Shown here: positions 428 to 8,800 of the stretch, one piece after another | Layout of the letters: each line of letters starts with the position of its first letter | Position numbering within the stretch: position 1 is the first letter of the stretch | Assembly: GCF_003935715.1 (NCBI RefSeq) | Contig: NZ_RHPP01000030.1 | Location: 1 to 34,525, forward strand | Direction of reading: 5' to 3' | Length of the DNA stretch: 34,525 nt | DNA from: Stenotrophomonas sp. 278 | GTDB lineage: Bacteria > Pseudomonadota > Gammaproteobacteria > Xanthomonadales > Xanthomonadaceae | Position numbers and translations under genes: made by a program | Notes under the pieces: generated by a model | Seen by the model: only the letters and a program-made list of their open reading frames with translations | Database searches by the model: none | Told to the model about the DNA's origin: nothing

Positions 428-955
428 TCATGCCCTCGCCCTACTCTTCTTCAGGGCACGCCGAAGGTTGCGCTCGATGCGGTGACACATCGAACGCAGC
501 TCCTGCAGCGCGTCCAGCATGCGGTCAGCCTCATCCAGTGTGACCTTGTCGTCTTCGAGCACGTCCAAAGCAACAGCGGACAGCTGCCCGCAGAACTTGG
601 AGACATGCAGCAGCTTCGTGCGGATCGCCGCGATTTCATCGGCCACGGCATCCGGAGCTGCAGGCACATGGTCGATGGTCAGGTTGAACTGCGCAGCAAG
701 CGAGAGGATCCATTCCGTGGCCATGGACGTACCCGCCGCCTGCTCCATCATCCAGTCGGTAAGCATCTCCATCATCTCCATGGAGAGCGACTCACCTTCC
801 AACCCACGGAGCTTCTTGCGCAGCGATTCCCCCTTGATGCTGACGCCGCGTCGCTTTGTCAGGTAGGCCGCAGCCGCATTGACGCTTCCTGGCATCCGCG
901 ACACCGCGTTGTAGGCTGCGTCGCGCCAGTAGATGTCAGACCGGGCACAGGTCAT
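428..955 (-). CDS. Phage CII-like regulator (CP76-type)
   Basis: The 175-residue protein resembles the phage regulatory CII family (Phage_CP76). Residues 10-100 have the family pattern: an N-terminal helix, a segment ending in SLRKKLRG that resembles a DNA-recognition helix, a Leu/Met-rich helix (MEMMEMLTDWMM), then a C-terminal helical half with Asp/Glu and Leu heptads that could oligomerise. Members control the lysis/lysogeny choice or early transcription. The gene is the fourth of the leftward operon beginning with cro. Its ATG overlaps the stop of the preceding gene in an ATGA, indicating translational coupling. The family call is from pattern memory; phage-regulator status is fairly safe, the exact role is not. 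Confidence 0.7.
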   Translation of the reverse strand: MTCARSDIYWRDAAYNAVSRMPGSVNAAAAYLTKRRGVSIKGESLRKKLRGLEGESLSMEMMEMLTDWMMEQAAGTSMATEWILSLAAQFNLTIDHVPAAPDAVADEIAAIRTKLLHVSKFCGQLSAVALDVLEDDKVTLDEADRMLDALQELRSMCHRIERNLRRALKKSRARA

Positions 956-1604: not shown

Positions 1605-2309
1605 ATGCCTATGACCCTCGCCGAACGCCTCATCCATGCCCGCAAAGAGTCGGGGTTCGCTGAGGCAAAGCCAGCCGCGGACCGCGCCGGCATCACTGCG
1701 TCTGCGATCTACCAGCTAGAGAACGGCAAGACAAAGAGCCTCCACGGCGAAACTGCAGTGCAGCTAGCGAAGGTTTATCCTCGTTTCCGAATTGAGTGGC
1801 TGATCGCTGGCGACGGGCCGATGCACGTGCCCGATAGCACCAGCAGCGTCCAAGTCTCAACGGGTGAAACACCACCCGGTTACGTTCGCCTCCCACTGCT
1901 TAGCATGGAGGGCGAGATGGGATTTGGTGCGGTGAACGACGAGCCTATTGAAGTCGTTCAGTTCTTGGACGTGGCCGAATGGTGGGCGCGACAGAATCTT
2001 CCCCACGACATTGACCGTGTCCGAGTAATCACCGCGCGCGGAGACAGCATGGCTGGTGTGATCAACCACGGCGACATCGTGTTTGTCGATCAGTCCGCGC
2101 CTTACTACGACGGCGAAGGCATATACGTGTTCAACTGGCAAGGCCGCGCGTTGATCAAGCGTCTAGCCCCTAACCTGCGCACTGGGAACATGCAGATTCT
2201 TTCGGCGAACAGCGCCGCTTATCCGCCCGAGGAGATTGCCGTGGGTGAGATTGACCAGCTCCACATCGCCGGCCGAGTTCTGGCTTGGCTAACCTTGAAG
2301 AAGTTCTAA
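1605..2309 (+). CDS. CI-like phage repressor (HTH plus S24 peptidase)
   Basis: The 234-residue repressor should maintain lysogeny and self-cleave on RecA activation. Residues 5-60 form an XRE-type helix-turn-helix (ADRAGITASAIYQLENGKT). Residues 90-234 are a LexA/CI S24 domain, with a GDSMAG motif carrying the catalytic Ser, a later lysine (ALIKRL) as the partner base, and a probable Ala-Gly or similar cleavage site between the domains. Length fits a lambda-type repressor. ATG 1605 is preceded by a -10 element ending nine bases before it and no ribosome site, as in leaderless lambda cI; ATG 1611 is the alternative. It is divergent from cro and shares direction with the integrase operon. Confidence 0.9.
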   Translation: MPMTLAERLIHARKESGFAEAKPAADRAGITASAIYQLENGKTKSLHGETAVQLAKVYPRFRIEWLIAGDGPMHVPDSTSSVQVSTGETPPGYVRLPLLSMEGEMGFGAVNDEPIEVVQFLDVAEWWARQNLPHDIDRVRVITARGDSMAGVINHGDIVFVDQSAPYYDGEGIYVFNWQGRALIKRLAPNLRTGNMQILSANSAAYPPEEIAVGEIDQLHIAGRVLAWLTLKKF

Positions 2310-5000: not shown

Positions 5001-5322
5001 AAAACTGGACCTGTCCGGCAAGGACTGGCTGACCGTCGAGGAATCCGCCCACTACTGCGGCGTCTCCAACAGCCAGTTCCGTAAGAACGCCTTGGACTAC
5101 GGGCTCACCCCCCGTCGCTTCATGGGAAAGCAGTTGTACGAGAAGGCGGCACTCTATGCCGCGATCCAAGGTGCTGAAGAATGGCAAAGGTTCGACTCTA
5201 CTGGCGCGGCAACAAGGCCTACCTCGACTGGGCAGAGAACGGGGAGCGCTTTCGCAGGTCCATTGGGCAACCTGACGCCCGTGAGGCGGAGAGAATTCGT
5301 GCCGCGAAAGAAGCCGAGCTGA
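4987..5322 (+). CDS. Excisionase-like HTH protein, overlapping int by 142 bases
   Basis: ATG 4987, four bases after GAGGTG, begins a protein whose first 60 residues resemble excisionase/MerR-type helix-turn-helix proteins (WLTVEESAHYCGVSNSQFRK, then LTPRRFMGKQLYEKAAL). It lies directly upstream of the integrase, the usual place of xis. After about residue 66 the frame runs 142 bases into int and encodes a Thr/Arg/Pro-rich tail of doubtful function. The HTH part is convincing; the tail may be tolerated read-through or a genuine overlapping domain. Confidence 0.65.
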   Translation: MGAAEKLDLSGKDWLTVEESAHYCGVSNSQFRKNALDYGLTPRRFMGKQLYEKAALYAAIQGAEEWQRFDSTGAATRPTSTGQRTGSAFAGPLGNLTPVRRREFVPRKKPS

Positions 5323-6170
5323 CACACGGTGTCCGCATCCTGGCTCGGCTGCCGAAGGTTCGCGACTACCTGGAGTGGTATCTCGACTGGTATGCAGCCG
5401 AGCACCCCACCACAATCACGAAGGCCCGCAGCGAAATGAAGCGCTTCCTCGAGCACTTCGGCCACCGTCCGATCGATACGATTCGGGCGTTGGAAGTCGA
5501 ACAGTACAAGCGCTCACGCCTGGTGGACGACAGAGCGGCGAAGGAGACTGTTGGGAAGGAGATTCGGCGTCTAAAAGCGGCTCTCAATCGTGGAGTTGAA
5601 TGGAAGGAGCTGGACGTCAATCCGCTAGCCTCAGTAAAGGCACCTCGTGGAGTGCGAAGCGTGGCGGTGAAGTTCTATGACCGTGCTGCTATGCGCAGGC
5701 TGTATCGAGCTAATCCTGCTCGCGCGCCGCTATGGATGTTCATGGCTCACACAGGCGTACGTCGCGGCGAGCTCATTGGTCTACGGCACAGCTCAGTTGT
5801 AGCTGGGCGATTACAGATTGAGAGCGAGCCTGACGAGACAGGGGCCGGCCGAACCAAGTCGGGAAAATGGAGAGAGGTACCGCTAAACCGATACGCCCTG
5901 TGGGCGTTGCGTCGCCTGCCAGATCCAATAGTCGCGGTTCACAAGGACACCGTCTCCGACTGGTTTGCTAAGGATGCGGCCCGGGCGGAGATTGGGGGCC
6001 ATCTCCACCGGCTGCGTCACACGTTCTGTGCTCACCTTGTTGCAGCAGGCGTGCCATTGAGGCGCGTCCAACTACTCGCCGGTCACGCTGATTACGCCAC
6101 GACCGAAAAATACTATGCTCACCTCGCTCCAGAAGGGGATGAGTCAGTGGTGAAATCATTGAAGTTCTAG
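5181..6170 (+). CDS. int: Tyrosine-family phage integrase
   Basis: The 329-residue site-specific recombinase integrates and excises the prophage. Residues 1-50 form a beta-rich arm-binding-type domain, residues 55-145 a core-binding SAM-like domain, and residues 165-329 the catalytic domain. The active-site set is complete: Arg194 (TGVRRGEL), Lys226 (TKSGKW), His276 and Arg279 (HRLRH), His302 (AGHAD) and nucleophile Tyr312 (YYAHL). ATG 5181 is the right start because the N-terminal strand pattern begins there. It is the last gene of the left operon. The nearest tRNA gene is 2.5 kb further on, with the cyclase operon between them. Confidence 0.95.
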   Translation: MAKVRLYWRGNKAYLDWAENGERFRRSIGQPDAREAERIRAAKEAELTHGVRILARLPKVRDYLEWYLDWYAAEHPTTITKARSEMKRFLEHFGHRPIDTIRALEVEQYKRSRLVDDRAAKETVGKEIRRLKAALNRGVEWKELDVNPLASVKAPRGVRSVAVKFYDRAAMRRLYRANPARAPLWMFMAHTGVRRGELIGLRHSSVVAGRLQIESEPDETGAGRTKSGKWREVPLNRYALWALRRLPDPIVAVHKDTVSDWFAKDAARAEIGGHLHRLRHTFCAHLVAAGVPLRRVQLLAGHADYATTEKYYAHLAPEGDESVVKSLKF

Positions 6171-6200: not shown

Positions 6201-6809
6201 TCACTGGACGAGACGCTCAGCAGAACACACGCCCACATCCGATCTTGTAGGCACCTGTTCGCCGTTGCTGACCAATAATGCCAAGCCAAGACACGAAACC
6301 CCTAGAATTCCGGCCCAAAAAGATCGCTTCACATAAGTGTACTTACGAACACAGATGCGAGAGATATCAAAATTATGGCGAAGCCGAACTGACACCAAGC
6401 TAGCAAGATCAAGGCCTGCGATCTGTCGTTCGAAGTCAGATGAGGACTGATGCCGAGCCACGGTACCGAAGAAAAATGGGTCCGTAGAGCGTGTCGCGAC
6501 TAACCTCGGTGCCATGCCCAAGAACGCAAAACCCGCCGAGGAGATAAGCAGCAACAACGATCCCACTCCAAAAACGAATGGAATCAAGCCCGGGTCTTGC
6601 CTCAACAGCGGTGATGATGTCGAACTGGTTAGAAGATAGGCCACCAACGCCGCCGAAGCAGCAAACGACCAAGCACACTTGGTGTCAGCAAACTGAATAT
6701 AGGCAGTAACATAGCTTTGTTGCGCGTCAGAAAATTGATAACGAGCTTCCAGTGAGGCGGGCTCTGAGCCCCTGGGCTCCGAAATTGCGCCAAGGTTCTG
6801 CTCGCTCAT
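6201..6809 (-). CDS. PycTM/DUF5706-like membrane effector (Pycsar)
   Basis: This 202-residue membrane protein looks like the transmembrane effector of Pycsar anti-phage systems, which disturb the inner membrane when a cyclic pyrimidine nucleotide binds. The family hallmark YIQFADTK is at residues 37-44, followed by membrane segments at about 46-61, 76-98 and 164-180. FFFG is at 112-115, and a cytoplasmic loop carries a KY pair before the last helix. ATG 6809 overlaps the stop of the cyclase gene in an ATGA; in-frame starts at 6818 and further upstream lie inside the cyclase gene and are unlikely. It is the last gene of a three-gene operon convergent with int. The family call rests on motif recall. 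Confidence 0.8.
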   Translation of the reverse strand: MSEQNLGAISEPRGSEPASLEARYQFSDAQQSYVTAYIQFADTKCAWSFAASAALVAYLLTSSTSSPLLRQDPGLIPFVFGVGSLLLLISSAGFAFLGMAPRLVATRSTDPFFFGTVARHQSSSDFERQIAGLDLASLVSVRLRHNFDISRICVRKYTYVKRSFWAGILGVSCLGLALLVSNGEQVPTRSDVGVCSAERLVQ

Positions 6810-7567
6810 GAAGTCCATCTTCCATAGTAGTACCAATATTGATACGGCGCTCCCGTTAGGCTGTACGAGTAGCCGGTATCGTGATCTGAGACCGTTGAAA
6901 GCCCCTTCCATTCCGAGGGCAGGCCTTCGCGAACGTTGTTCCCTATCATCAGCTCGCCCGCCTTCGCCACATTAAGCATCTTGCATGCAAGATTTGCCGT
7001 GGTACCTATTGCAACGATTCCGTTGAATCTCAGCGCCGCCCCCATTTTTGCAATGGTCAAAGGGCCACTATCAATGCATATTCGGAACAAGAATGGAGGT
7101 ATACCGCGCGCTATGAGCGCATTATTGAGAGTACTGTTCAGTGCGTCGTTTACAACATGAAATAGCGTAAGTGCAGCAGCAACTGCTCGTTGCTCCTTCG
7201 TCGCCCCCTCATTCGGCTCCGCAACAAAGTACGCCATCAATCCGTCGCCGGTATTCTTCTCGACAGTGCCACCGAAGTCCTCCACGACACGAATAGCTTC
7301 GGTGAAGAACAACGATAGGCCTCGAAGCATAAGCTCCTGCTGCTCCATCGTCTCCTGCGGTCGCGAAGTGAACCCGGATATATCAAGAAACAGCACTGCA
7401 GCGTGCAAAGACCGACCCTCATGGATCGCCATATCGTCTGCGTCGGGAATCACCCTCCCGACGCCGAGGCCTGACCGGCGATCTATAGATTCGGCAGTCG
7501 CGAGAATTCGGGCACTTTGCGATGCACGGTAAGCGGGTGACACAAGCGTGCGAAAACTTTGCATCAT
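6806..7567 (-). CDS. Class III nucleotide cyclase, second of two (Pycsar PycC-like)
   Basis: The 253-residue protein is almost entirely one class III cyclase catalytic domain (residues 55-245). Metal-binding Asp62 is in LFLDISGFT, and Asp108 in KNTGDG together with Lys104. The substrate strand follows (CIDSGPLTIAKMG), then NLACK at 192-196, where many canonical enzymes have Asn-x-x-x-Arg; here the last residue is Lys. Activity is expected on sequence grounds, but the nucleotide (UTP, CTP, ATP or GTP) cannot be read off. The gene overlaps both neighbours by ATGA, so all three are translationally coupled. In Pycsar a single cyclase normally partners the effector. Confidence 0.82.
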   Translation of the reverse strand: MMQSFRTLVSPAYRASQSARILATAESIDRRSGLGVGRVIPDADDMAIHEGRSLHAAVLFLDISGFTSRPQETMEQQELMLRGLSLFFTEAIRVVEDFGGTVEKNTGDGLMAYFVAEPNEGATKEQRAVAAALTLFHVVNDALNSTLNNALIARGIPPFLFRICIDSGPLTIAKMGAALRFNGIVAIGTTANLACKMLNVAKAGELMIGNNVREGLPSEWKGLSTVSDHDTGYSYSLTGAPYQYWYYYGRWTS

Positions 7568-8511
7568 GTCACCTCGTAGACCGGATAGGAGACCAAGAGC
7601 CGGGGAAGGCTATCAGCGGGAACACGACGAGCACGCAGAAGCCACTGAACGTGTAGCAAATTGTATAGCTCATTGCCGATGCGCATAGTATTAGGAGCGC
7701 AGGTCTGCTCAATTTTCACCGCGAGGTTCAATGCATCACTTCTTACGGACGGCCAACTGAAACCGGTGATCGCGTTTGTCTTTGTCTCAATCAGCGCAGG
7801 GCCGTAATCTGCACCCACTCGTACACTCAGTCGAGGCAGCCCTGCAGATTCCAGGACAGGGGAAAGCGATTCCTTTACCAGCTTGATCATGGAAGTTCCA
7901 AGGTCAACTATCAGATCGCACTGGCGAGTAAACGAAGGATGCGGAAGGTGGACTATGAATCCGTCTCCAGTATCCTTAAGCACTGCGGCTTCGAACTGGC
8001 CAACTAGTATCTGCAATTCTCGGAGCAGCACTTCAGTTGCTTTATCAAACGCGACAGCGTCCCGTCTCCGCAGCTCCGTCGATCCGCAAATGTCGAGCGA
8101 CAGAAACGGAGTGCTAACCGAGCTGGACTCGCCAACTGGCTCTTTGTGATGCGCCGGCTGTATTACGGGATGCTTAAATGGCTCCCCATGAAGCTCTTCA
8201 GACACGGCCGAAGCGCGCTCGATACCGTACTCACTCGTGGACGAAATTCGCGGCCGCAAGTCATACAGCGGCACGCTTCGGATGGCTTGCTCTACCGAGG
8301 CAACAGGTATCGCAACCTTTGTGAAGCGATCTAGGTAGCAGGCTTCGCCCTTTACCTCAATTCGAGTGTATCGACGAGGATCCGGCTCAAGTCGAAGCTC
8401 GACCTGGCCATCATAGAGTTGCACCTGCTCACAAACAAAGTCAAATCGTCCAAGCACACTTGGGCGACAGCCCGACTCGTCGGCGTCTGGTTCCTGAGGA
8501 GACATCACCAT
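7564..8511 (-). CDS. Class III nucleotide cyclase with N-terminal extension (Pycsar-like)
   Basis: The first gene of the operon encodes 315 residues. The catalytic domain covers about 134-315: Asp140 in LSLDICGST, Lys179 and Asp183 in LKDTGDG, strand RVGADYGPAL, and NLAVK at 262-266, again with Lys replacing the usual Arg. Residues 1-130 form an extra beta-rich region of unknown fold (YDGQVELRLEPD), plausibly a sensor. ATG 8511 abuts AAGG; ATG 8505 has AAGG at a proper six-base spacing and is the likelier start. Both cyclases keep the metal-binding Asp pair, so they could form two homodimers or a heterodimer. Confidence 0.82.
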   Translation of the reverse strand: MVMSPQEPDADESGCRPSVLGRFDFVCEQVQLYDGQVELRLEPDPRRYTRIEVKGEACYLDRFTKVAIPVASVEQAIRSVPLYDLRPRISSTSEYGIERASAVSEELHGEPFKHPVIQPAHHKEPVGESSSVSTPFLSLDICGSTELRRRDAVAFDKATEVLLRELQILVGQFEAAVLKDTGDGFIVHLPHPSFTRQCDLIVDLGTSMIKLVKESLSPVLESAGLPRLSVRVGADYGPALIETKTNAITGFSWPSVRSDALNLAVKIEQTCAPNTMRIGNELYNLLHVQWLLRARRVPADSLPRLLVSYPVYEVT

Positions 8512-8723: not shown

Positions 8724-8800
8724 TGGTGACCCCGGCCCGATTCGAACGGGCGACCTTCCCCTTAGGAGGGGGACGCTCTATCCAGCTGAGCTACGGGGCC
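8724..8800 (-). tRNA. tRNA-Arg (anticodon CCT)
   Basis: A 77-base gene including CCA folds as a complete cloverleaf. The acceptor stem GGCCCCG pairs with CGGGGTC with one G-U; the D arm is GCTC/GAGC; the anticodon stem TCCCC/GGGGA holds loop CTCCTAA, giving anticodon CCT for codon AGG; the T arm is GCCCG/CGGGC with TTCGAAT. CCA is encoded. The 3' end points toward the prophage, and tRNA 3' ends are common integrase targets, so this is the likely attachment site. Confidence 0.95.

Follow-up and report, generated by a model that had tools for sequence, protein, structure and literature searches.

The stretch of DNA analysed here (hereafter the window; 34,525 nucleotides, or 34.5 kb) is a single contig (C233), the first 8.7 kb of which are prophage-like, with a tRNA-Arg(CCT) gene marking the end of this region. 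The relevant features are the following:

428–955, minus strand: CII-like prophage regulator (phrog_101, 1.7e-20; Phage_CP76, 1.9e-5, slightly below the cut-off)
1605–2309, plus strand: CI-type prophage repressor (phrog_4, 1.2e-39; Peptidase_S24, 7.8e-18)
5181–6170, plus strand: prophage tyrosine integrase (Phage_integrase, 2.5e-18; phrog_1, 7.4e-50)
6201–6809, minus strand: gene C, PycTM effector, 202 aa (PF18967, 4.5e-9; PADLOC PycTM, 1.7e-20)
6806–7567, minus strand: gene B, PycC-type cyclase, 253 aa (PADLOC PycC, 1.9e-22; Guanylate_cyc, 1.6e-5)
7564–8511, minus strand: gene A, class III cyclase with an N-terminal extension, 315 aa (Guanylate_cyc, 7.7e-5; PADLOC PycC, 7.5e-6)
8137–8454, minus strand: the N-terminal extension of A (approximately residues 20–125; 17 invariant residues; Pfam-negative)
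8724–8800, minus strand: tRNA-Arg(CCT), a likely attachment site (bases 8724–8772 are repeated exactly on contig C281)

The ORFs, strands and coordinates of A, B and C agree with those in a preliminary description of this DNA, as do the 4-nt ATGA overlaps at both joints (A/B at 7564–7567; B/C at 6806–6809) and the placement of the operon, all three genes of which lie on the minus strand between the integrase and the tRNA. The ATG at 8505 may be the likelier start of A, since AAGG is positioned 6 nt upstream of it; a consensus promoter scan upstream of A returned one site on the right strand, which corresponds to the chance level. The proposal that the operon is prophage cargo is supported by the integrase, the CI-type and CII-like regulators, and the tRNA with its duplicated 3′ end. 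The G+C content of the operon is 0.53–0.54, compared with 0.64–0.70 in the chromosome to its right, and beyond the tRNA lies a DAHP synthetase-family gene, which we take to be kdsA. The exact 49-bp duplicate of the tRNA-Arg 3′ end is located at G000:C281:13146–13194, within a 17-kb stretch containing no tRNA gene, which suggests a second attachment site used by an integrative element; that this repeat is the other end of the window's own prophage is a possibility.

The product of gene C is a PycTM protein, the assignment on which the preliminary description made its Pycsar reading depend: it scores 37.1 bits against PF18967 (gathering cut-off 27.2), matches PADLOC PycTM at 1.7e-20, and has hydrophobic spans near residues 72–104 and 162–182 by hydropathy, thus combining a score above the gathering cut-off with the membrane spans expected of the family. 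B passes the Guanylate_cyc cut-off and retains the metal-binding Asp pair (D62 and D108) together with K104; its profile retrieves several solved class III enzymes, including the PycC structures 7r65, 8jsf, 6yii and 8jsz, the first two of which are nearly tied. A Pycsar system has a PycTM or PycTIR effector gene beside a PycC-type class III cyclase with the metal Asp pair, and in this gene content the locus agrees with it.

A is a more distant cyclase. It exceeds the Guanylate_cyc cut-off only narrowly (22.8 versus 21.9 bits), its match to PADLOC PycC is weak (7.5e-6), and a search of solved structures with its profile finds CyaB (2.3e-15), then the cytidylate cyclase 8jsf (1.2e-11), which is the only PycC structure it retrieves. 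As previously noted, A retains the metal Asp pair (D140 and D183) and K179. Across seven homologues D140, D183, N262 and K266 are invariant; in total, 34 residues are invariant in the cyclase part and 17 in the N-terminal part (up to residue 125), the latter spanning R22 to L107. Pfam searches with three bacterial extensions returned no family up to E 10, and a search with an archaeal extension gave matches only below the cut-off (best 0.012), none of which was accepted. The earlier suggestion that this extension is a sensor is a guess.

After merging of duplicates, seven loci carrying A were obtained: the window (identical to the IMG/VR locus L007), Stenotrophomonas SAM-B 002 (L002/L040/L081), L008, L009, L010, and loci from Haloterrigena (L005) and Natrialba (L041). 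A search of 199 relatives gave four matches: two are full-length A, namely the window and Stenotrophomonas G023 (59%), its nearest named A-bearing relative and of the same genus, and two are single cyclases that resemble B. Searches of 398 phylum and 369 class genomes returned many cyclase-domain matches, and among the matches listed full-length A occurs only in the window; in the class search at E 1e-15 two non-window matches, in long frames, cover query residues 75–284 and 114–308. Among 146 genomes of the Natrialba order (E 1e-15) A is found only in Natrialba. Across 84,980 species genomes, a pattern-limited scan yielded two A loci; IMG/VR gave four A contigs, the same four being recovered by a second scan; a plasmid search gave the Haloterrigena A and one partial match in an unrelated context; and 50,697 phage records gave no A match. 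A is rare, yet its true number is likely to be higher, since the search patterns were narrow.

B and C lie beside A at all seven full-length A loci (five bacterial or on viral contigs, two haloarchaeal), so that the co-occurrence of A and B homologues required by the preliminary description is observed, and A is no chance neighbour. Six of these loci are well separated, as L008 and SAM-B 002 are closely related. PADLOC models provided a check independent of the profiles built in this analysis: C at the six non-window loci matches PADLOC PycTM at 7.1e-19 or better, and B at five of the six matches PADLOC PycC, the identity of the Haloterrigena B, which was outside the PADLOC set, coming from annotation and alignment. 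Each A locus has one PycTM gene. The order A-B-C, with an A/B overlap of 1–4 nt, is found in 5/5 bacterial-type loci; at both archaeal loci B and C form one unit and A is divergently transcribed. Several of the other loci likewise lie in a mobile setting: L009 adjoins phage genes for a DNA methyltransferase, a portal and a terminase, at L008 an integrase lies approximately 3 kb away, an integrase-like fragment adjoins C in L081, a neighbour of the Natrialba locus matches phrog_24372 at 2e-127, and the Haloterrigena locus is plasmid-borne. For L010, an IMG/VR contig, the neighbours tested match a helicase and unknowns only. In the one pair of loci with measurable dS, dN/dS is 0.23 (A), 0.08 (B) and 0.11 (C), indicating that in this single pair A is under purifying selection and evolves faster than B.

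How often PycTM is accompanied by one or two cyclases was assessed with two samples chosen independently of A: PF18967 matches in 398 phylum genomes (31 places, 3 below the cut-off) and PADLOC PycTM matches in 395 family genomes (59 places), which combine to 88 distinct places. L082 and L083, which were retrieved through the A search, were excluded. When approximately 3.5 kb in both directions (a shorter stretch where the contig ended) was scanned with cyclase profiles made for this analysis, a nearby cyclase was found at 17/88 places, the window included; this is a lower bound, given the limited context width and the possibility that the profiles miss distant cyclases. Nine of the 17 have a single-domain cyclase (in one case split into two ORF pieces), six a tandem cyclase of two domains (one of them incomplete where its contig ends, and two alike and from one genus), and two, the window and SAM-B 002, separate A and B genes. 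At the other 71 places the profiles recognised no cyclase within approximately 3.5 kb.

Comparison of the active site motifs reveals where the two cyclases differ. In B the key positions are Phe, Asp, Lys, Thr, Asp, Asn and Lys in 7/7 loci, with Phe two residues before the first metal Asp, and Lys and Thr four and two residues, respectively, before the second. A keeps both metal Asp residues and the Asn/Lys pair in 7/7, whereas the residue two before the first metal Asp is Ser or Cys in all seven. Position −4 relative to the second Asp is Lys in five A proteins and Asp in the two archaeal copies; in the latter, the positions of the Lys and Thr of B are occupied by Asp and Gln. The aromatic position belongs to the residue sets whose joint mutation abolished product formation in AnPycC and EaPycC (PMC11224242). 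We considered its loss as a mark of A only, but dropped this since 4/34 other Pycsar-associated domains, all of the 'TEYLGDG' type, also have no aromatic residue (the comparison included the seven B proteins and counted tandem halves separately); three of these four belong to single-cyclase plasmid systems. In four clade A tandem cyclases, the second metal Asp is absent from the first half (4/4) and the Asn/Lys pair from the second (4/4). The motif table holds 27 chromosomal cyclase rows; gen_L028 and gen_L031 were misaligned and were left out. The motifs of A and B do not decide the identity of the messenger, which for a Pycsar system would be cCMP or cUMP.

TEYLGDG-type cyclases were also seen at L154–L158, L165 and L166, each beside a small hydrophobic protein, in enterobacterial and Acinetobacter plasmids (one with blaOXA-72) as well as in a pair of IMG/VR contigs, of which one is 110 kb long; several have Phe or Trp in place of the usual Asn. 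Absence of this Asn from the second cyclase of a Desulfosporosinus locus (L153, below) was considered as proof of subunit specialisation, an argument that was dropped because the single-cyclase relatives L154, L156 and L157 are without it too.

In phylogenetic trees the A proteins form one clade (support 98/92, or 96/93 when the tandem rows are omitted) that lies outside the B-like group, and A and B have the same branching order among the five bacterial-type loci. The p values of the tree tests are indicative only, the groups having been named after the first tree was seen; with this proviso, a clade of A plus the seven B proteins, as expected were A a recent duplicate of B, is rejected (lnL 92 lower, p ~1e-80), and a clade of A with all B-like cyclases is not (p 0.08). 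On the sequence comparisons, A is best regarded as an anciently separate cyclase clade and not a recent copy of B. Derivation of A and B from a split clade A tandem enzyme was set aside, tentatively in view of the long branches there, as neither groups with the tandem halves. A single origin of the A+B pair was also discarded: the seven B proteins as one clade are rejected (p ~1e-70, likewise indicative), since the archaeal B has as its sister a Haloplanus B with no second cyclase within approximately 4 kb. Either A was lost in the Haloplanus lineage, or A joined another PycC lineage.

The reading we favour, which we hold at about even odds, is that A-B-C forms an abortive-infection operon of Pycsar type whose cyclase consists of two subunits, A and B, under the control of the extra domain of A, and that this operon is prophage cargo situated next to the tRNA. 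We infer that A would pair with the PycC-type B as a cyclase subunit. Following the division of residues between protomers in class III cyclases, the main active site of an A:B dimer would combine a metal-binding half contributed by A with a base-binding half contributed by B. On infection this dimer would be controlled or triggered by the N-terminal domain of A, and the cyclic nucleotide made would activate the membrane protein C, which would then damage the membrane such that the cell is stopped or killed ahead of phage release. A two-subunit cyclase is the simplest account of seven A/B pairs, of the bacterial coupling, and of a pocket that is altered in A but not in B; congruent trees, the precedent of the tandem enzymes and selection on A also count in its favour. 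Counting against it are the divergent archaeal A, the Haloplanus B sister without a second cyclase, the faster evolution of A and the occurrence of aromatic loss outside A. A broader proposal, to which we give somewhat less credence and which we would put at a little under even, is that A represents a new type of cyclase partner, obligate and equipped with a sensor domain, which joins different PycC lineages into a signal-gated two-component pyrimidine cyclase. In this proposal A would have been transferred between prophages of bacteria and plasmids or proviruses of haloarchaea.

The complete motif set of B could permit a B homodimer, and the nearly complete motifs of the five bacterial A proteins make separate enzymes possible. 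A and B might accordingly be independent homodimeric cyclases which make two messengers, read by one PycTM or by unknown receptors. That both window cyclases keep the metal Asp residues, the Lys and the Asn/Lys pair is consistent with this, as are their unlike base pockets (Ser versus Phe; Asp/Gln in archaeal A versus Lys/Thr in B) and the different PycC structures they retrieve (8jsf only for A; four for B). Set against it are the single PycTM gene at each of the seven A loci, the fact that A was never found without B, and the A/B coupling at 5/5 bacterial-type loci, and we consider this arrangement improbable; the motif pattern leans, short of proof, towards a pair. We judge equally improbable an arrangement in which B forms a conventional PycC homodimer and A, despite its cyclase scaffold, serves as a regulator or sensor that binds nucleotide or B with no need for catalysis of its own. 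Such a role would fit the complete motifs of B, the altered pocket and novel N-terminal domain of A, and the presence in the same genus of B-like cyclases beside PycTM without A (L003 and L004, judged by gene content), but the metal Asp and Asn/Lys pairs of A are invariant in 7/7, and a pure regulator would not obviously need them.

Accessory genes frequently gather at the integrase-tRNA ends of prophages, and the second cyclase might be redundant or serve another process, being mere prophage cargo. We regard this as very improbable, given that the trio is present at 7/7 A loci, which belong to different elements and span bacteria and archaea, and that purifying selection acts on A in the one pair for which dS can be measured.

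Pycsar operons are already known, as are PycTM and the tandem cyclases of clade A, and Pycsar in S. maltophilia has been counted previously (PMC11680222). In titles and some abstracts of the literature we found neither a two-cyclase Pycsar operon nor a separate-gene pair with this N-terminal domain, and an earlier description is possible. For phage sensing by Pycsar cyclases, a structural paper of 2024 (PMC11224242) puts forward phage components, pH and oligomerisation as no more than possibilities. A second subunit with an extra conserved domain would part a possible sensor from the enzyme, and as a result the sensing question would be testable by removing one gene or domain.

The single-domain PycC systems (clades B, D and E) likewise have a PycC-type cyclase beside PycTM, with same-genus examples at L003 and L004; they have one cyclase gene per operon, whereas the window has two cyclase ORFs. 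The earlier statement that Pycsar uses one pyrimidine cyclase plus an effector is incomplete, since in clade A a single PycC chain contains two cyclase domains in succession (PMC11224242). The base-recognition sets given there for PycC of clades B, D and E are Y50/D94/R97, F60/K104/F109 and F100/R142/Q144, and neither A nor B fully matches any of these sets, published for BcPycC, AnPycC and EaPycC.

The clade A tandem enzymes (6yii type), represented in the same genus by L051 (6yii at 1.2e-169), resemble the window in having two cyclase modules and one PycTM. They differ in being one chain with complementary motif loss in the halves, compared with two genes with near-complete motifs in both; the window is further distinguished by the N-terminal domain on A and by the absence of a tree grouping with the tandem halves. 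Two adjacent Pycsar systems were seen at L095 (G943:C1, 1142–5789), the first with a tandem clade A PycC and PycTM, the second with what appears by eye to be a CNBD-TIR effector and a clade B-like PycC.

Two further loci, on the IMG/VR contig L046 and the Desulfosporosinus acidiphilus plasmid L153 (NC_018066.1), likewise have two separate cyclase genes and one PycTM, although neither first cyclase is established as A. In L046 (4120–6346) the second cyclase is B-like (35% identity) and the first, of 253 aa, has Gly for Lys at −4; the tree test does not reject grouping this first cyclase with the A proteins (p 0.11, again indicative). In L153 (4932–7096) the order is cyclase-PycTM-cyclase, followed by an integrase. 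The mammalian adenylyl cyclases are class III enzymes with two unlike catalytic modules, C1 and C2. As in the window, these modules differ in motif residues, but they operate without PycTM, and both partners in the window keep most motifs. Two cyclase modules serving one effector thus exist in fused form, within one chain, and also as products of separate genes. The window pair is a two-gene arrangement distinct from the clade A tandem, and this pairing recurs in a few other phage-like elements and in haloarchaea.
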